The translations under genes were made by a program, and so were the position numbers. The notes below the pieces were generated by a model, which worked only from the letters and a program-made list of their open reading frames with translations, was not told where the DNA came from and searched no databases. A stretch of 64,000 bases of DNA from Planctomycetota bacterium (lineage in GTDB: Bacteria > Planctomycetota > SZUA-567 > H5-PLA8). Positions 39,940 through 49,953 of the stretch are shown here, one piece after another (the stretch's first letter is position 1; each line of letters begins with the position of its first letter). The DNA is taken from NCBI GenBank assembly GCA_027493525.1, contig JAOSKN010000003.1, positions 1,922,001 through 1,986,000 on the forward strand, written 5' to 3'.

Positions 39940-41853
39940 TTAAGCGTGAACTCCCAGGGCACGCAACGTCACCGAAACGTCCTCAACTCGTCCTGCGCCC
40001 GTCTCGACGACGTAGGAGCCTTCGACATTCGACGCCGCGAAGCGCTCGAGATGCCGGCATGCGATGCCGTCGCGCGTCCAGGCATGTTCGATCTCGAGTT
40101 GCGACACCTCGCCGCACGCCGGCGGCTCGCAACTCAGCCCCGCGCGCACTTCCCAGCCGGGCAGGTCCGCCGTCACGCGCAGGAAGATGGCCTCGGCCGC
40201 CTGCGCGGGCAGGTACTCGCCGTCCAGGCTGAAGTGATAGCCGTGCTCGTGGACCGGCGCGACGCGCTCGTCGATCGGGGTCCAGGGACCATCGGGGGCG
40301 CAGGCGGCTTCCAGTTTGGCGCGCGGCGGCCGGCTCAGGTACTCGGGCGGCGGAGCGTCGGGGTGTCCCTTGAAGGACTGGATCGAGGCCTGCACCCATG
40401 CCCGGTGAATCGGCCGGCCGCGAAAGACGCGGGGCGCGGCTTTGAAGACCGCGCTCCAGGGCTTGGAGGCATCCTCCGGCGAGAGCCGCACGTACGGGGC
40501 GTCCCCGCGCTTGAGGTTCGAAGCCGCGACGATCGTCCGCGCGAAGCCGGCGGCCTCCTCGAGCGGCGCGACCCACGGCTCGGTGAGCGTCCCGCCGCCG
40601 CGCTCGTCGCCGGCGTGGAACTTCAGCATCGTCCGGCCCGCGTCGAGGAACGGGTACGCGTTCGGCGCGTGCTGGAACCAGGTCGTCAATTTGAAGTCGC
40701 GCGCCTCCGCGCCTCCTTCGAACTCTAGCGCGATCCGCGCGCGGTGCCGGCGCTCAAGCCAGCGCGTGAAGTCCGCATGCAGCGCGCCCGAACGTTCCGC
40801 GCGCGCCGCGCGCTCCCAGGTTTCGCCGTCCAGCGTAATGAGCACATTCACCGCGTCGCCGGCCTTGGGCGCCTCCACGTTCAGGTCCGCAAAGGCCGCG
40901 CCTTCTTTCCGCGATGGCGCTCCAGGATCGAGCACCCGCCCGGTGATCGGCCAGGGCGAGTGGATCAGGTACTCGATCCGTGCGCGTTTGCCGCCGGCGG
41001 CACGCAGGCCACCTCCGGCCTGCGCGACGCCCTCCGCGAGCCAGGCGCCATGGACTTCGGGCGTGTGCGTCAAGTCCGGCGCGTACTCAAAGCACCCGTT
41101 GGAATAGGTTCGATGCGGTTCGAAGCGTTCTCGCGGCCCGCGGCCATGCCATTCGTTCTGGTATTTCTTGCTGTCTTCGACCCAATGTGCCGGGAACGAC
41201 CAGCGTTCCTCGCGCGGGCCGGGGTAAAGCACCAGCCGCTCGCCAGGCCGGAGCAGATAATCCATCGTGTGCAGCCGCTCGATAAAGCGCGGCATCTGCC
41301 CGCCCTTGCCGGGCGCGTAGAGGCTCTTCGCCATCGACTCGGGGTCGCGGTCGGCGACGTAGTATGGATCGCTGCGCGCAACCGGGTTCGCCACGAGGTC
41401 CGGATGGGCCAGCAAGTCCTTCAGCGAGGCGATCTGCCCGTCAGGGCGGCGATGGATCGCGCGCAGGTCGCAGTCGATCAGGCGCCACGCGCCGCCGTAG
41501 CGGACCTCGTTGAGCGTATGCCCGGTGACGCCGACGATCGCCGCCTCCAGCCCGGCCTCCTCGCAGAGATTGGCGTAGATGGCCGCAACGGTCCCGCAGA
41601 GCATGTAGCCGTAGCCGTTGATCAGTTTCAGCGGATCCTTCACGTAGTCGTTCGGGTGGTACGGGCGGTGCACGTCCAGGTCGGCAGGCGACCAGAAGTG
41701 GTAGAAGCCCGCGACCGGATCAACGGTGTAGCGCCAGAGCGCCAGGGCGAGTTCCTCGTCCTGCCGACCCGCAAAGCGCTCGTGCGCCACCAAGCGGCGG
41801 AGGCTGAAGGTATCGGGATGCCGGGCGTTGTGGATCCAGGGGCTGCGGAGCAT
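39940..41853 (-). CDS. Transglutaminase-like cysteine protease-fold protein
   Basis: 637 aa, GGAGAGG five bases upstream. The transglutaminase core is at about residues 75-150: Cys in 'GYGYMLCGTVAAIYANL', His in 'GVTGHTLNEVRY', Asp in 'WRLIDCDLRAIH', the expected C-H-D order. No signal peptide is seen. The C-terminal half contains beta-rich segments ('RARIEYLIHSPWPITGRVLD', 'RARIALEFEGGAEARDFKLT') of unknown family, possibly carbohydrate or protein binding. It stands apart from the beta-helix operon by 255 bp. The reaction is unknown: relatives hydrolyse peptides or cross-link proteins. Confidence 0.75.
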   Translation of the reverse strand: MLRSPWIHNARHPDTFSLRRLVAHERFAGRQDEELALALWRYTVDPVAGFYHFWSPADLDVHRPYHPNDYVKDPLKLINGYGYMLCGTVAAIYANLCEEAGLEAAIVGVTGHTLNEVRYGGAWRLIDCDLRAIHRRPDGQIASLKDLLAHPDLVANPVARSDPYYVADRDPESMAKSLYAPGKGGQMPRFIERLHTMDYLLRPGERLVLYPGPREERWSFPAHWVEDSKKYQNEWHGRGPRERFEPHRTYSNGCFEYAPDLTHTPEVHGAWLAEGVAQAGGGLRAAGGKRARIEYLIHSPWPITGRVLDPGAPSRKEGAAFADLNVEAPKAGDAVNVLITLDGETWERAARAERSGALHADFTRWLERRHRARIALEFEGGAEARDFKLTTWFQHAPNAYPFLDAGRTMLKFHAGDERGGGTLTEPWVAPLEEAAGFARTIVAASNLKRGDAPYVRLSPEDASKPWSAVFKAAPRVFRGRPIHRAWVQASIQSFKGHPDAPPPEYLSRPPRAKLEAACAPDGPWTPIDERVAPVHEHGYHFSLDGEYLPAQAAEAIFLRVTADLPGWEVRAGLSCEPPACGEVSQLEIEHAWTRDGIACRHLERFAASNVEGSYVVETGAGRVEDVSVTLRALGVHA

Positions 41854-41987: not shown

Positions 41988-42677
41988 ATGAAGGGTTGGG
42001 CCGCGGGTCTGGCCGTCGCCGTCGTCTGCGCGCTCCTCGGCGGACTGCTGGGCGCTTTGACGCTCAACCCCGACGACCTGCGCATCCAGCCGTTCCTGTG
42101 GGGCGCGCTGGCGAGCCTGCTGCCCTCGGCCCTCGCCGGCTTCATGGCCGCGCGCGGCGTGCTGGGGCGGAGCAACGGTTCGATCGAGGGGCTCGACCAG
42201 TTGACGGGGCTCTTCGGCGAGGAACGCCTGCGCCAGGACCTCGAGGTGGAATGGTCGCGCAGCAAGCGCGTCGGCAAGAAGGTCGGGGTCGTGATCGCCG
42301 AACTCGACCAGGGCGAGCGCTTCGCGATTCCCCAGTACGTCGCCTGGCGCGCGATGGCCCGCACGCTCAAGCAGGCCACGCGCATCTCCGACAGCGCCTA
42401 TGTCCTCGGCCCCGGCCGCTTCGCCGTGCTCCTCAGCGCCACCGAGACCCAGGGCGGCGACGTCGTCATCAAGCGCCTGCGCGGTTCGGTGAAGGACGTG
42501 CCGGAACTCTACGGCGTCAAGATCCGTTATGGGGGGCACGTGGAAGACCCCGGCGATCCGGCCGAACCCCTCGCGGAGCAGGTACTCCTGGGCGCGCAGG
42601 AAGCCGTGCGACAGGCCCAGACCGAGACTACCGTACCCAAGCCGCCCGAACCGGCGGAGGCCACGGGAACGGCCTGA
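41988..42677 (+). CDS. Membrane protein with degenerate GGDEF domain
   Basis: 229 aa. Two N-terminal membrane segments (about 5-26 and 36-57) are followed by a diguanylate-cyclase-like region: 'LDQLTGLFGEERLRQDLEVE' corresponds to the DxLTGLxNRR entry of GGDEF domains, and 'MARTLKQATRISDSAYVLGP' to the helix before the active site. The signature GGDEF is replaced by G-P-G-R-F (141-145), so cyclase activity is not expected. It could bind c-di-GMP weakly or serve only structurally. The gene is followed at once by a strong terminator. Confidence 0.65.
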   Translation: MKGWAAGLAVAVVCALLGGLLGALTLNPDDLRIQPFLWGALASLLPSALAGFMAARGVLGRSNGSIEGLDQLTGLFGEERLRQDLEVEWSRSKRVGKKVGVVIAELDQGERFAIPQYVAWRAMARTLKQATRISDSAYVLGPGRFAVLLSATETQGGDVVIKRLRGSVKDVPELYGVKIRYGGHVEDPGDPAEPLAEQVLLGAQEAVRQAQTETTVPKPPEPAEATGTA

Positions 42678-42708: not shown

Positions 42709-42870
42709 AGGGTGATGGAATCGGCCGCCCTCAACCGTTACACTGGGACTGCTGCACGTTGTATGCGATTGAGGTAACTTTAGTCTCATGCGATCTTTAG
42801 ATAAGTACAATTTTTTGAACCTCAGCGCCCAGCCCAGCGTTTCTAAGACCGTTGGATGGGGTTTGCTCCG

Positions 42871-43482
42871 ATGAAGAGCGACCCCGAGCTGATGGCGGAC
42901 TTCGCGGGAGGCGACGAGTCGGCCTTCGACAAGCTGGTCAAGCGGCATCAGGTCGGGCTGTTGAACTACTTTTTCCGCCTGCTCTGGGACCGCACGCTGG
43001 CCGAAGACCTGACCCAGGAAGTATTTCTGCGCCTCTATACGCACCGGGAAGAGTACGAGCCCCGCGCGAAGTTCACGACGTACCTGTACCGCATCGGGCG
43101 CAACTGCTGGATCGACTACCTGAGGCGGACGAAGGCTGAACGAAAGACGCGCAGTCTGGACGCGCAGGACGAGGAGGGGCGGTCGCTTTCGGAGGCCGTG
43201 GCCGCGCGGGCCGAAGATCCGCGCTCGACGGTGGGCAAGGACGAACTCACCGAGGCGGTCATCGAAGCCATCGACGCGCTACCGGAGGACCACAAGCTGG
43301 TCTTCATCCTCAGCGAGGTCCAGGGCATGAAGTACCAGGAGATCGGCGAGACGCTGGGCATCCCGGTGGGCACGGTCAAGAGCCGCATGTTTCACGCGCT
43401 CAAGCGCCTGCGGGAGCATCTCGGACGGAGCATGAAAGGCGCGCGCGGCCCGTGGCAACAGGCCGGCGGCGAGGCGGACTGA
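42871..43482 (+). CDS. ECF-type RNA polymerase sigma factor
   Basis: 203 aa from ATG at 42871; an upstream ATG at 42856 is possible. Region 2 'LLNYFFRLLWDRTLAEDLTQ' with 'EVFLRLYTH', then 'KFTTYLYRIGRNCWIDYLRR', and region 4 'LPEDHKLVFILSEVQGMKYQ' with 'EIGETLGIPVGTVKSRMFHA' are all clear. Its stop is two bases before the start of the anti-sigma gene, so the two are translationally linked. It may direct transcription of this pair and of the large secreted gene at 44557, but no shared promoter motif was confirmed. Confidence 0.95.
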   Translation: MKSDPELMADFAGGDESAFDKLVKRHQVGLLNYFFRLLWDRTLAEDLTQEVFLRLYTHREEYEPRAKFTTYLYRIGRNCWIDYLRRTKAERKTRSLDAQDEEGRSLSEAVAARAEDPRSTVGKDELTEAVIEAIDALPEDHKLVFILSEVQGMKYQEIGETLGIPVGTVKSRMFHALKRLREHLGRSMKGARGPWQQAGGEAD

Positions 43483-43484
43483 CG

Positions 43485-44420
43485 ATGGACGAACGGCTTC
43501 AGGAAGATCTGGTCGCGCTCGTCAAGGACGAGTTGCCGGCCGAGCGCAAGGCCGAGCTTGAGGCGCTGGCCGAGCGCGATGCCGCCGTGCGCGAGGAACT
43601 CGAGCAGATCCGCGCGGCGCTCCGCGCCGTCCATCGCATCGGCATGGTCGAGCCCAGCGCCGCCTTCCGCAAGAAACTTGAACAGCGCATCCGCGATTCC
43701 GTGGTCCACAAAGAGCGCAGCGGGCGACTGAAGCGCCCTGGATCGACGGCTCTGCGCCTGACGTCCGTCGAGTCTCCGTCCGCCTCCGCGCTGCGCGCCG
43801 CCGAGGCCGCGCGCTCCTCGCGCAAGACCTCCGCCTCGATCCGCCTCGCCGAGCGCCGGGACCGTCCCGCGGGCCTGGGCTGGCTGCGCTACGCCGCCCT
43901 CGCCGCCGCGATGGTGCTCCTGACGCTCACCCTCGCGCACTTCTTCTACATGCCCAGCGGCCGGCCGGCCGACGAAGCGCCCCTCACGGCGATGATGCAG
44001 CGCTGGAACGAGCGCCGCGAGGCCCCGCGCTGGGAGGACGTGCTGAAGGGCGACGCCGTCGCCGCCGCCAAGATCCCCGACGGCACCGAACTGGTCCTGC
44101 TCGGCAACTACAAGGAAGGCGGGCAGGAGAACTGCGTCGTCGCCTACACCGAGAGCCAGCTCGAGGCGCTGCGCGCCCACGCCGGCGTCGATCCGAAGGA
44201 TCTCGAGGCGCGCCTGGCGCTCTCCTTCAAGGCCACGGTCGAAAACGGCGCGGTTGTCGTGCCCCCGCAGTTGCGCGCGCGCTTCTTCAAGGACGCCAGC
44301 GCCCGCGTGGTGATCCTCGCCTGCCCCGACCGCTTCGAACTCTGGTCCGAGCCCGACTTCCAGCGCTACCTCGACGCCGAACCCAAGCTCGAAGCCGTCC
44401 CCCCCAAGACCGGCTCGTAG
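43485..44420 (+). CDS. Membrane anti-sigma factor with a C-terminal MraZ-like domain
   Basis: 311 aa. Residues 1-60 form a helical anti-sigma-like head ('LVALVKDELPAERKAELEAL'). A basic Ser-rich linker and one membrane helix (about 133-155) follow. Residues about 200-297 align by eye with MraZ: 'NCVVAYTESQLEALRAHAG' corresponds to the 'CLxLYxxxEWE' part and 'GAVVVPPQLRARFF' to 'GRLLIPxxLR'. 'RFELWSEPDFQRYL' matches the FELW ending of MraZ. MraZ proteins are double AbrB-fold DNA-binding rings in the cytoplasm; here the fold would lie across the membrane if the anti-sigma head is inside. That arrangement suggests a sensor use of the fold (inference). Confidence 0.75.
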   Translation: MDERLQEDLVALVKDELPAERKAELEALAERDAAVREELEQIRAALRAVHRIGMVEPSAAFRKKLEQRIRDSVVHKERSGRLKRPGSTALRLTSVESPSASALRAAEAARSSRKTSASIRLAERRDRPAGLGWLRYAALAAAMVLLTLTLAHFFYMPSGRPADEAPLTAMMQRWNERREAPRWEDVLKGDAVAAAKIPDGTELVLLGNYKEGGQENCVVAYTESQLEALRAHAGVDPKDLEARLALSFKATVENGAVVVPPQLRARFFKDASARVVILACPDRFELWSEPDFQRYLDAEPKLEAVPPKTGS

Positions 44421-44556
44421 ATCGTGCGCCAGCTTTTAACGTACTCCCAAGTTAATTATTGCGGCTAAGCCCGTTTCAGCATATGACCCAGGTTATTACA
44501 TCCTTTGGGCGCAAACTTGGCGCGCCTTATGCGTCTTCATCATGGAGGGGCTCGGT

Positions 44557-47500
44557 ATGCGCGTGCTCGCGATTGGATTCGGCTTGGTCCTGGGCACGCT
44601 GCTGCTGGTGAGCATCGGCGCGCTGGTTCCGCCTGGGCCGGCTCCGATTCTTGGGGGGGTAAGCGCTCCGGTTGAATCGGCCGCAATCCCCGCGCAGGTC
44701 CGCCACGCCGCGCCCCTTGTTGTTTTATCCGCGAAGAACAAGCCCGAGTCGTTCGTCAAGCTCGCCGAACGGCAGGCGGATCGGGCGCGCAACATCCACG
44801 AAAACTTCGAGGCCGCGATGAACCTCGCCGGCGCGCTGCAAAAAGCTGGAAAACCGGACGCCGCCGTCGATGACGCGCTCCGCCGCGCCGCCGATTTCGC
44901 CGAGTGCCTTCCCGCGGGCACGCTCGGCGCGAACGGCCGGCCCACGCCCTTCTCCGGCCCCGAAGGCGGCGCGCGCACGCTGCTCGCCCAGGCGCACCGC
45001 GAGATCGTCCACGGCGAACAAGCCGCCGCGCGCCGGCATCTGGAGTTGTTGCTCGAACGCTACGCCGAAGCGAGTCCCGCGCTCGCGGAGCAAGCGCGTG
45101 CCGACCTGGCGCGGCTGGACAGCGGGGAGCAGGCGGCCGGAGCGCCACGGGCCTTGGCCGGTGCGAAAGAGGAAAAGCTCCTCGGCAACCGGAAACCGGC
45201 GACCGGAAACCAGCAACCGGTAACCGTCGCCGCGCGCGAGGTCTCGCCCGTCCAGACCACGCTCGTCCTGGCGACCAGCGAAGCCAACACCGTGATCTTC
45301 AGCGGGGCCGAGAACGGCAAGACCTACACCATCTCCGCCGCCGGGATTTGGGCGCAAGATCCGGACCCTCAATTCGACACCGGCCCGGAAGGCCTGGCGA
45401 GCTTCGGGACCATTTCCGGCGGCCCGTTCGCGGGGATGTTCTTTGGAACCTTTGCCGCGCAGGAACCCGGCAGTGGAAGTTGGCAGGCCATCGGCGCGTC
45501 GGGTTCCATTACGGCGACGGCCGACGGGGAAATTCTCGGTTCGTTCGCGGATATTCTGGGGCTTTACGGGGACAATAACGGCGCGCTGTTCGTCACCGTG
45601 TCCGAGGAAGGCTTCGAGCCGCCGCCGGGCGCGACCGCGCCGCCGCTCGCCGATGCCCGCGTGAGCCCCGATACCGCCTGCGTGCATTACGCCTCGACGA
45701 ACGTCGCGCTCGACGGGAGCCTCTCGGCGGACGCCGACGCGGAGGGCGACGCGCCCGCGCTGCGCTGGTTTCACTGGCGTCTGGTCAACCTCACGAATCC
45801 GGCGGTGAGGCCGCTCGTGTACGAGGGCCCCGATTCGTTCGCGTTTCCAAGCGGGCTGAATCAGCCCGGCGCATACGAAGTGACCTTGCGCGTCGTGGAT
45901 AACGAGGGCGAACTCGGCACGGCGGTCCGGACGCTCACGGCGGTGGGGATCGTCTTCGATCCGCCGTCGCTGGAGGCCGAGGTTGGCGCGACGGCGACCT
46001 CGAACGCGGAAGTGATCCCCGCGAGCGCGGCGGATGGGATCAGCTTTGAATTCAGCGTGCCGGACGTGGCGAATTTCCAGGCGACGAGCGCGGGCGCGGG
46101 CGTCATCGAAGTCCAGATCGAGGGCGTGGCGGAAGGCAGCACGGAATTAATCGCGCAAGTCCAGGGCGAATTCGGCCCGGAGAACTGCGAGTTTCTGTAT
46201 GTAAGCGTGGTTCCGCCGTCTATCAAGACGCCGCCCGTCGCGATAGCGGAGACGACCACGCCGGTCATCTGCGCGGGCGGGACGGTGACGCTGGACGGCA
46301 GCGGCTCGCACGATACGGACACGGTCAACGACGACCAAATCCTGCCTCAGATTCAGAACTATGCCTGGACCCTGGTGAACCTGACGGACCCGGGGCAACC
46401 GCCGATTACCTTCAGTACCCCCAATGCCATGACGACGACGGTGCTGACTGCGCCGGGCGAATACGAGGCGACGCTGGTGGTGACGGACAACGACGGGGAT
46501 CCGTCGCTGGACGGATCGAGCGATGCGCACGCGACGCTGATCGTGGTGGGCGTGACGTTCGAGCCGGACGTGCTGGCCGTGGAGGTTGGCGAAACGGAAC
46601 TTACCGTCGCGACGGTCGTGCCCGCGAGCGCGGCCGGCAGCGTCACGTTCTCCCTGACGGATGCCGCGAAAGCGTCCATTCCCGCGAATCTGCCCGCCGG
46701 CGCGATCGTCCCGATACCCGTGACGGGCTTGACCGAAGGGCTGACGACGCTACGGGCGGAAGTGGCCACCGGCATGGGGAGCGAAATCTGCGCGACGGCG
46801 GACATTGCCGTCCTGCCTGCTCCCGCGGGAGCCGTCGCGGCCATCCTGGATACCGAAGACAATGTACTGGAATTCCTGGGCCATAAGCTGGACAAATTGC
46901 CCGTGGACAGCCAGGGTTTCGGAACCGTGGTGAGCCTGCAATTCGGCGGCGGCGCGGCGGTTGCGGCGCGCGCTTCCGGCCTTGCCCCGGTCGAACTGTC
47001 CGACGATCGGATCGACACGCTCAACGTGGAGCTTTCCCGAAACCAGGACGGCTTCTCGGAGCGGATTTCGCTTACCGAGACGGGCGCGGACTCGCTGGAC
47101 TTCTTCAGCGCGGACGGCACGGTCGTCGCTCGAGTGACCCGTCCTCCGGGGAACGACACGAAGCGTATCGACACGATGGAACTCACCCTTACCTCGACGA
47201 GATACCTGGCGATCGACACGACTTTCAACTTGATCGAAACCGGGAAGAATACACGAACCTTCAGGAGTCCCGACCGCGGCTTGAGCGTGTTATTCATCGG
47301 CCGGCCGCATGCGAACCGGCGGGACTTGGCGCTGGCCTTCGTCTTCGACGCGACGGCGCGGGACCTGGACCCCGCGTTGCTGATCGAGACGGGCAAGGAT
47401 ACGCTGGACTTCCGGAGCGCGAACGGCAAGACGCGGCTCGTCCTGCCGGCGGGCGTGGAATTCGACGCGCATGCGGCGGACGAATTCGAGGCGCGCTTCA

Positions 47501-49953
47501 GCGAGGCGCGGCAGGGCGTCTCCGGCGCGCCTTTGCGCCTGCTGGAGTCGGGCGCCGACAGCCTGTTCTTCCAGACGCGCGGCGCGGGGCTGTCGGGGAG
47601 CAACGAGATCGTTGTTCGGGTAGAGATGAGCAGGGACGATGCTTCGCAAGGCGGCACCGTAGCCAATACCATTGTTGCCACTTTAAGCGCGGGAAGCCAG
47701 TCCATCGAAGTCACCCTCACTCGCCAGCCAGGAATTGGCGATCCGGTCAGGTATTTTTCGAAGGCCATAAAAGTAGGCGCGAACGAAACCAGTAGGGATG
47801 AAGTCGCAATTCAGGCCGCGCCTGGAACCAAAGTGACGGCGCAAGCCGCCAAACCCAAAGATGGAGCCTTGGTCATATCCCAGCGGGTCGCCGTGTACGA
47901 AGCCGCCATCCTTGAGCCCAGTACGAACGTCGTAGTGGCGGGGCCGAATAGTACGGCGAATATAGCGCTCCTTATTGGAACGGGTGGGACTCAAACGCCT
48001 GACGCGGAAAGCCTCGAGGCCACGATGGAAATTAGTTCGGGCGGCGAGTTGATACGTAAATTAACGGGGCCTGTAAGCCTGACCGATGTTGCTGGCGTTT
48101 TGGCCTGGGACCTTACGAACGAATTCGCGGTGTTTGTACCACCCGGCAACTACGACATAACCATTACCGTGGCGCCCCCGGGCGCGCCGACCGCATCGCG
48201 AGCCGTTTCCAACACCCACACCGTCACCGTGGTGGAAAATCTCGGCAAGCCTAAGGCCTCCATAGTGGACGTGGACACGTACCGGGTGATGGTGGCCAAG
48301 ATGGCTGGGGTATCTCCTGGCAGTCAAAACGCGGACGTTAGAATCGTCATTTCTGACTTGCCGCCAGGACAACAAGCGCTTGTAACGGTGGAAGACCTGC
48401 CTGGAGCCGGAAGCTGTACCATTGAGGATTCACGGAGAATAGACCCAAGGACCTTGTTATTGCCTACTGGGGTTCATAATGGGATCAAGCTTCAGGGGGA
48501 CCGGCTAAGTAAATCGCGGCACGATATTCTCGTCACCGTGCGTGACCCCGTAAGCAAGGCCGTATTGGCAAGCGAGACCTTTACTTCATTTTGGGTTGCT
48601 CTGGATTCCCCGCCAGATTTCCATGGAAATGGTGCGCCGGAACTCCCGATTGAGCCGAATAATGGTAGGTTTCCACTACGAGAGAACCTTTTCATTCGCT
48701 TTCTCACTAGAAAACCAGGGTTTGGGATACTTAAGCTACCAGCGGAGAGTGTAGCCCATACTGGTATTCTCGTTAGAGGTACGATCATCCCTTCCGGAAT
48801 GGTGTCTACTGACTTCAGAATTGAAACAAGCGAAAGGGATGGCTTCAACTTCGCTCGGAAACGTACAACAAGAATGTGGGTTGAAAGTGGGCCGGATATT
48901 TGTACTTCTGAAAACCCCGCCGGCGGCGGAGCAAATGTTGACAATGGGGACGACGATCCCGATGGAGACGTTTCAGACGAAGATCTAAAGCCAGATCGTG
49001 ACGGTTCAGAAAGAGATCTATATATCTATAGTATCGATGCCCCTAGAGTATCAAGTAGCCAGATAATCCATAACGAAACTCTTCGATTTCGTGGCAACTT
49101 CAATACCTTTACCGAATATCAATCGGTACGTTGCTCTGGAGATTTTGTTTGGTTTAGCCGAATTTCGGTCACAAAATCTCCTCAGGGTGACCTGCAAAGC
49201 AGCAGTACATTCCAGCATGACAACCTAAATGCGCCAGGCATTACTTCATTGGCTCCCGATTTAATCAGCACTCCCCCGACTGTGGATTTTGTAATCGGAG
49301 CCATTTCACCTACGGCGATTGCACCTTCCCTCCCAGGACCGCAAGTCCTTGATGTTATATCAAAAGCTGGAACTACATTTCCTCCAGGTATGATAACAGT
49401 CAGTTTGGACAAGATATCCGGAGATGGTCCTGACAGTATTCCTCTTATTGGACAACCGACGAGGAAAGCTGGTGACACAATCATCTCTGTAGCCTTGGAT
49501 AGTGCTGCAATAGCAAACTCATTAAGAGCAGACTATCGAGTACATGTTGAAATCGACGGAGTTGGTTGTCAGTCGTTCACATCGCTTATTATCGGGAACA
49601 GATTCTGGCAGAATGTTGCTTTGGCCAATGATTTTGACCCCATAACAAATAAGATAACCGGTATCACGGTGACATTTGTTCCTTTAAACGCATCTGGAAT
49701 TCCAATCAATTTACCGGCGGATGCTCTACCTACTATTCAGCCTTCACCAGCATTTACGACAACAGGGACCATTCAAGCGGCCGGGCCTGTTCAAGTAAAG
49801 GCAAATGGAGTCGAATTCTTCAGGAAATTTGTTCTTCCTCCAAGCACTCCTCCATTATCGGGTGGCTTCGTGATTGAATGCCAGGGCCCCGCCTCGGTTC
49901 CTCCGATTGCACCGGGCTATGCCCCTTTGCTGACTTATACGGAAGGGCAATAA
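44557..49953 (+). CDS. Giant secreted protein with Ig/PKD-like domains and a low-GC C-terminus
   Basis: About 1798 aa from ATG at 44557 (GGAGGGG six bases upstream); an ATG at 44542 would add five residues. An N-terminal membrane or signal segment (about 1-24) precedes a helical part, a heptanucleotide-repeat-encoded linker (14 residues, 45186-45227) and several Ig/PKD-like domains. Around residues 825-1020 a module with 'SLTETGADSLDFFSADG'-type cores repeats four times. Acidic Asp-rich segments lie near residues 1460-1490. GC content and codon choice change at about 47.6 kb: before it the gene is high-GC like its neighbours, after it clearly AT-richer to the stop. No enzyme motif was recognised. 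It follows the ECF/anti-sigma pair. Confidence 0.65.
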   Translation: MRVLAIGFGLVLGTLLLVSIGALVPPGPAPILGGVSAPVESAAIPAQVRHAAPLVVLSAKNKPESFVKLAERQADRARNIHENFEAAMNLAGALQKAGKPDAAVDDALRRAADFAECLPAGTLGANGRPTPFSGPEGGARTLLAQAHREIVHGEQAAARRHLELLLERYAEASPALAEQARADLARLDSGEQAAGAPRALAGAKEEKLLGNRKPATGNQQPVTVAAREVSPVQTTLVLATSEANTVIFSGAENGKTYTISAAGIWAQDPDPQFDTGPEGLASFGTISGGPFAGMFFGTFAAQEPGSGSWQAIGASGSITATADGEILGSFADILGLYGDNNGALFVTVSEEGFEPPPGATAPPLADARVSPDTACVHYASTNVALDGSLSADADAEGDAPALRWFHWRLVNLTNPAVRPLVYEGPDSFAFPSGLNQPGAYEVTLRVVDNEGELGTAVRTLTAVGIVFDPPSLEAEVGATATSNAEVIPASAADGISFEFSVPDVANFQATSAGAGVIEVQIEGVAEGSTELIAQVQGEFGPENCEFLYVSVVPPSIKTPPVAIAETTTPVICAGGTVTLDGSGSHDTDTVNDDQILPQIQNYAWTLVNLTDPGQPPITFSTPNAMTTTVLTAPGEYEATLVVTDNDGDPSLDGSSDAHATLIVVGVTFEPDVLAVEVGETELTVATVVPASAAGSVTFSLTDAAKASIPANLPAGAIVPIPVTGLTEGLTTLRAEVATGMGSEICATADIAVLPAPAGAVAAILDTEDNVLEFLGHKLDKLPVDSQGFGTVVSLQFGGGAAVAARASGLAPVELSDDRIDTLNVELSRNQDGFSERISLTETGADSLDFFSADGTVVARVTRPPGNDTKRIDTMELTLTSTRYLAIDTTFNLIETGKNTRTFRSPDRGLSVLFIGRPHANRRDLALAFVFDATARDLDPALLIETGKDTLDFRSANGKTRLVLPAGVEFDAHAADEFEARFSEARQGVSGAPLRLLESGADSLFFQTRGAGLSGSNEIVVRVEMSRDDASQGGTVANTIVATLSAGSQSIEVTLTRQPGIGDPVRYFSKAIKVGANETSRDEVAIQAAPGTKVTAQAAKPKDGALVISQRVAVYEAAILEPSTNVVVAGPNSTANIALLIGTGGTQTPDAESLEATMEISSGGELIRKLTGPVSLTDVAGVLAWDLTNEFAVFVPPGNYDITITVAPPGAPTASRAVSNTHTVTVVENLGKPKASIVDVDTYRVMVAKMAGVSPGSQNADVRIVISDLPPGQQALVTVEDLPGAGSCTIEDSRRIDPRTLLLPTGVHNGIKLQGDRLSKSRHDILVTVRDPVSKAVLASETFTSFWVALDSPPDFHGNGAPELPIEPNNGRFPLRENLFIRFLTRKPGFGILKLPAESVAHTGILVRGTIIPSGMVSTDFRIETSERDGFNFARKRTTRMWVESGPDICTSENPAGGGANVDNGDDDPDGDVSDEDLKPDRDGSERDLYIYSIDAPRVSSSQIIHNETLRFRGNFNTFTEYQSVRCSGDFVWFSRISVTKSPQGDLQSSSTFQHDNLNAPGITSLAPDLISTPPTVDFVIGAISPTAIAPSLPGPQVLDVISKAGTTFPPGMITVSLDKISGDGPDSIPLIGQPTRKAGDTIISVALDSAAIANSLRADYRVHVEIDGVGCQSFTSLIIGNRFWQNVALANDFDPITNKITGITVTFVPLNASGIPINLPADALPTIQPSPAFTTTGTIQAAGPVQVKANGVEFFRKFVLPPSTPPLSGGFVIECQGPASVPPIAPGYAPLLTYTEGQ
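45186..45227 (+). repeat. Heptanucleotide repeat inside coding sequence
   Basis: Six tandem 7-base units (CAACCGG, AAACCGG, CGACCGG, AAACCAG, CAACCGG, TAACCGT) total 42 bases. Because 42 is a multiple of three, the array inserts 14 residues (NRKPATGNQQPVT-like) without breaking the frame. Similar ACCGG-type heptamers are usually intergenic in bacteria, so a coding location is uncommon. Confidence 0.8.

Follow-up and report, generated by a model that had tools for sequence, protein, structure and literature searches.

The locus analysed here raises the question whether a membrane-bound anti-sigma factor can carry a domain of the MraZ type behind its membrane helix, and what such a domain might do there. 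Few signalling devices of bacteria are as numerous as ECF sigma factors, and for many of the outer sensor domains connected to them an explanation is still lacking. In the initial annotation of the window (the whole stretch of 64,000 nucleotides of Planctomycetota DNA that was analysed) the open reading frame at 43485-44420 had been described as a transmembrane anti-sigma factor ending in an MraZ-like domain. The reading frame proved to be real and begins 2 nt past the stop codon of a sigma factor gene. The features of the locus are the following (window coordinates).

42817..42840, + strand: predicted ECF-type promoter, GAAC-N17-CGT, 30 bp 5' of the conserved sigma start codon
42856..43482, + strand: ECF sigma factor, 208 aa (Pfam Sigma70_r2, 1.8e-17; Sigma70_r4_2, 4.2e-17)
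43485..44420, + strand: membrane anti-sigma factor with a MraZ-fold C-terminal domain, 311 aa
43485..43724, + strand: anti-sigma domain at the N-terminus (residues 1-80), predicted to form four helices
43896..43952, + strand: single membrane helix, residues 138-156 (Kyte-Doolittle 19-residue maximum 1.88)
44028..44378, + strand: MraZ-fold domain, residues about 182-298, predicted to be extracytoplasmic
44133..44135, + strand: Cys217, found in every anti-sigma MraZ domain (13/13)
44238..44252, + strand: equivalent of the MraZ DxxGR loop, V252-E-N-G-A256, Asp and Arg lost
44337..44345, + strand: E285-L-W287, the E-x-W signature of the C-terminus, present in all members (13/13)

The ATG at 42871 is probably the start that the sigma gene shares with its orthologues. 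The ordinary mraZ of the host genome (7.5 Mb, 6 contigs) is another gene, located in the dcw cluster before rsmH-, ftsI- and murE-like genes, which were named by sequence inspection. The anti-sigma gene is not located at the head of dcw beside rsmH and is not a stand-alone MraZ; it sits 3' of the ECF sigma gene.

Some neighbouring genes were also recorded. A membrane protein encoded just 5' of the sigma gene (41988-42677) has a degenerate GGDEF-type domain (PF00990, 3.6e-7), the GGDEF signature itself was not seen in it, and it is kept at the same place in the related genomes G001 and G002. On the minus strand, at 39940-41853, there is a 637-aa protein, transglutaminase-like by eye, for which no Pfam match was obtained at 0.01; G001 and G002 have it close to the operon as well, and a similar-looking ORF lies 5' of the sigma gene in G011. 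An 1803-aa PKD/Big_2 protein (44542-49953) follows the anti-sigma gene on its 3' side; as a conserved downstream target it was rejected, being not detected at the related loci.

The motifs on which the supposed MraZ likeness had been based were all found in the protein (C217-VVAY, G255-AVVV-P260-PQ-L-R264 and F284-ELW287). The window protein alone gave marginal scores: it matched PF02381 with E 0.0021 and 18.4 bits, the Pfam isolated-domain cut-off being 23, and its three best phmmer matches in the PDB were all MraZ at insignificant E values of 0.2-0.5. The comparison of families was decisive. When 10 anti-sigma C-terminal domains were aligned to 22 canonical MraZ proteins by hhalign, a probability of 97 and an E value of 7.8e-11 were obtained over 98 columns, extending into both MraZ halves. 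The C-domain profile matched only four PDB sequences, all of them MraZ (best E 1e-4). A profile of ten C-domains, built without any MraZ, recovered MraZ-sized ORFs of ~140-200 aa in more than 100 genomes, and those ORFs that were inspected were canonical MraZ. One orthologue, L007, exceeded the PF02381 cut-off by itself (23.3 versus 23 bits; 25.2 in the genome search), and this single protein combines an above-cut-off Pfam MraZ match with a sub-threshold zf-HC2 match.

The structural comparison pointed in the same direction. The AF2 model of the C-terminal domain, built from four sequences, reached pLDDT 79.3 and pTM 0.72, and its best 16 Foldseek matches were 16 MraZ chains with E values of 2.4e-7 to 2.8e-4; no non-MraZ match appeared below E 0.01. 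The alignment covers the whole MraZ monomer (138 columns versus 137 residues) with TM scores to the target of 0.60-0.73, and the two-repeat MraZ fold was recovered in the predicted model. The full-length model has low confidence (pLDDT 64.6, pTM 0.38), and MraZ is still found first with it. The homology of the C-terminal domain to MraZ can therefore be regarded as established from the sequence comparisons, and its MraZ fold as predicted by modelling; family profile, PDB and Foldseek searches all confirmed what had been supposed from the motifs.

Searching for the sigma-antisigma-MraZ architecture elsewhere, which had been suggested in the initial annotation, revealed 13 family members, belonging to three classes, among 392 sampled Planctomycetota genomes, 11 of them with an adjacent ECF gene. 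The profile of 13 C-domains found exactly these 13 members at E <= 1.5e-27, followed by a gap to E ~1e-10, below which came almost only ORFs ~140-200 aa long, the size of canonical MraZ. A contig scan with the window protein as the single query found nothing, whereas a four-sequence alignment matched three Planctomycetota MAGs. Eleven members belong to the class of the window (29 genomes sampled) and two to other classes, those of G045 and G056 being represented by one genome each. Within the same family the anti-sigma orthologues are 60, 39 and 37% identical, and more distant ones occur in other families. In the tree, several branches of which are long, all 13 domains fall on the same side of a branch with 98/97 support, so that the data agree with a single origin. 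Most of the fully read loci share one layout: a helical (often zinc-finger) N-terminal domain, one membrane helix and a MraZ-like C-terminal domain. The reading frame of L042 (G024) is shortened at its N-terminal end, and at L134 (G024:C94) the anti-sigma ORF is missing its N-terminal part directly 3' of the sigma gene, through either truncation or a frameshift; the N-terminal part of the G056 protein is also short. In G010 the protein shows no anti-sigma domain that could be recognised, and a sigma gene is not found beside it. Two contigs share the G011 gene, and its parts were joined by a 10-residue overlap for alignment only. Another unusual MraZ fusion was encountered at L126:595-1791 (G055:C78), a 399-aa ORF in which a MraZ domain over the cut-off (PF02381, 5.2e-8) stands behind a restriction endonuclease domain of the Mrr type (PF04471, 4.3e-7).

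The identification as an anti-sigma factor is based on several observations. In 11/13 loci (the window and 10 others) an ECF sigma gene stands directly 5' of the anti-sigma gene. In the N-terminal domain helices were predicted by AF2 at residues 3-13, 19-31, 33-51 and 59-81, and zf-HC2 matches were found in seven orthologues (L059, L060, L007, L034, L020, L137, L138), five of them over the cut-off. The zinc ligands are absent from the N-terminal domain of the window protein and of its G001 counterpart; about 56% of the known class I ECF anti-sigma factors possess the zinc motif (PMC7406223). Foldseek with the full-length model gave a weak match to RskA (4nqw_B, rank 46, E 1.7, probability 0.57).

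As for the topology, the window protein has one strongly hydrophobic segment, at about residues 138-156 between its two domains, so that the MraZ domain follows a membrane helix as had been claimed. The net charge of the helix flanks is +2 on the N-terminal and -1 on the C-terminal side. All members in which this region is present have a single helix; of its two flanks the N-terminal one carries the higher net charge in 11/13 members, and the charges are equal in 2/13. Since there is a single helix, the flank charges are biased and the sigma factor is cytoplasmic, the hydrophobicity and charge analysis predicts an N-in/C-out arrangement with the MraZ domain outside.

Residues kept and lost were compared between the 13 anti-sigma MraZ domains and 27 canonical MraZ proteins. 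The DxxGR loop is the presumed DNA-contacting part of the AbrB/MraZ fold. Its Asp is present in 27/27 canonical MraZ and in 0/13 anti-sigma domains, and its Arg in 27/27 and 3/13, respectively. The first repeat is eroded: most of its conserved positions are lost, G and P are largely absent, and its helix is missing in most family members. On the other hand, the core Cys is present in 13/13 anti-sigma domains versus 23/27 canonical MraZ, both Glu and Trp of the C-terminal E-x-W in 13/13, and the second-repeat Pro in 11/13. Having lost the DxxGR loop together with most of the signature of the first repeat, the C-terminal domain probably no longer binds DNA. Redox or disulfide sensing is not proposed, since the invariant Cys has no second conserved Cys as a partner.

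The sigma factor itself is better conserved than its presumed partner. Its orthologues are 87, 74, 68, 54, 52, 48 and 46% identical, and the anti-sigma factor diverges faster (60, 39 and 37% versus 87, 74 and 68%). In the class of the window, 8 genomes have a sigma orthologue at E <= 1e-40, and the anti-sigma gene is present in 8/8. AAC and CGT boxes are typical of ECF promoters; as a rule, ECF operons control their own expression and are transcribed together with the anti-sigma gene (PMC8103513). A GAAC-N16/17-CGT element was detected before 11/11 sigma genes adjoining a MraZ-type anti-sigma gene, 11-34 bp from the start codon, where 0.04 would be expected from first-order Markov sequences; in G011 the sigma orthologue is found elsewhere in the genome, without the promoter motif. 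This conservation suggests that the element is the autoregulatory promoter of the operon. A regulon search with TTGAACCT-N14-16-CGTT in four related genomes yielded 10 sites, and the only one common to genomes was the operon's own promoter (G000, G001, G002). Further regulon targets are not claimed, because the other sites are not shared between the four genomes.

Taken together, the findings make it quite probable that the protein, encoded in an autoregulated ECF operon, is a membrane anti-sigma factor with an exapted MraZ fold as its outer sensor or assembly domain, most likely devoid of DNA binding. The sigma/anti-sigma pair would form the autoregulated operon, the N-terminal helices would hold the sigma factor on the cytoplasmic side of the membrane, and the protein would cross the membrane once, exposing the MraZ-fold domain on the outer (periplasmic) side. 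There this domain might act as a ligand-binding, protein-binding or self-assembly module which tells the membrane part when to release the sigma factor. By analogy with other membrane anti-sigma factors the release could occur by proteolysis, which is the commonest route (PMC8103513), or by conformational change, and the freed sigma factor would transcribe its own operon from the GAAC/CGT promoter.

The initial annotation had left two possibilities: either the topology is inverted or an AbrB/MraZ fold has been reused to sense the state of the wall or envelope. With an inverted or dual topology the MraZ domain would be cytoplasmic and regulate DNA, the protein being a membrane-tethered transcription factor instead of an outward sensor. 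MraZ is otherwise cytoplasmic and DNA-binding, and three members have retained the loop Arg, but this reading is quite improbable, because the sigma-binding N-terminal domain must be cytoplasmic, one helix follows it in every member and the flank charges favour N-in; moreover, the loop Asp is lost in 13/13 and the Arg in 10/13. The erosion of the DxxGR loop fits the reuse of the MraZ fold, which is the favoured alternative; the signal may or may not concern the wall or envelope. It is extremely improbable that an unrelated beta-rich domain has come to resemble MraZ by convergence or through a chance match of motifs. The marginal scores of the window protein alone might be read in this way, nevertheless MraZ was singled out by the profile, profile-profile, structure and reciprocal genome searches, and chance likeness is untenable in view of this family-level evidence.

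The C-terminal domain might also be a passive spacer or stabiliser, with the signalling located elsewhere. The faster divergence of the anti-sigma protein would suit such a role, but the core residues are invariant across three classes, which makes it improbable. A sub-case of the preferred explanation is that an outer MraZ-type ring clusters the anti-sigma factors, and their assembly state is sensed instead of a ligand. MraZ acts as an octameric toroid (PMC7761207), the retained residues are those of the core (C/E/W) and the entire monomer is spanned by the alignment to MraZ; erosion has, however, affected the first repeat, whose helix is missing in most members, and this sub-case seems rather unlikely, though still worth considering. 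Returning to the exapted MraZ fold as outer module, a wider scenario can be put forward tentatively, with somewhat less than even confidence: the fold of a DNA-binding division regulator may, on a single occasion in Planctomycetota, have been transferred across the membrane, lost its DNA binding and come to sense the state of the envelope or wall, possibly by ring assembly, thereby controlling an ECF sigma factor.

The initial annotation named no described precedent, and no MraZ-type anti-sigma factor was found in the literature searched, the coverage of which was partial and does not prove novelty. Planctomycetota have been reported to lack FtsZ (PMC12283558). Compared with MraZ (PF02381, TIGR00242; PDB 1n0e, 9r4j), the domain shares the fold, the C..Y segment, the second-repeat Pro and the terminal E-x-W, but it is fused after a membrane helix, lies outside dcw and has eroded DxxGR and first-repeat motifs. 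AbrB/SpoVT swapped-hairpin DNA-binding proteins have a single AbrB motif and MraZ has two copies (PMC4739770); unlike the AbrB/SpoVT proteins, the domain has the two-repeat MraZ form and is predicted to be outside the cytoplasm. With the class I membrane-bound ECF anti-sigma factors (RskA, RsiW, RseA) the protein has in common the sigma to anti-sigma gene order, the one helix, the helical domain at the N-terminus, in which the zinc motif may be present or absent, and the C-terminal outer domain, which is MraZ-like here; such an outer domain was not encountered in the literature searched. The protein is best placed among the class I membrane anti-sigma factors, as one whose outer domain is of a new kind, and not as MraZ, since defining features of the latter were looked for and not found. 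For this outer domain a relative is known, a cytoplasmic ring protein that binds DNA and belongs to the division and cell-wall cluster, and the locus offers a clear example, open to testing, in which the fold of a transcription factor has apparently become an extracytoplasmic module.
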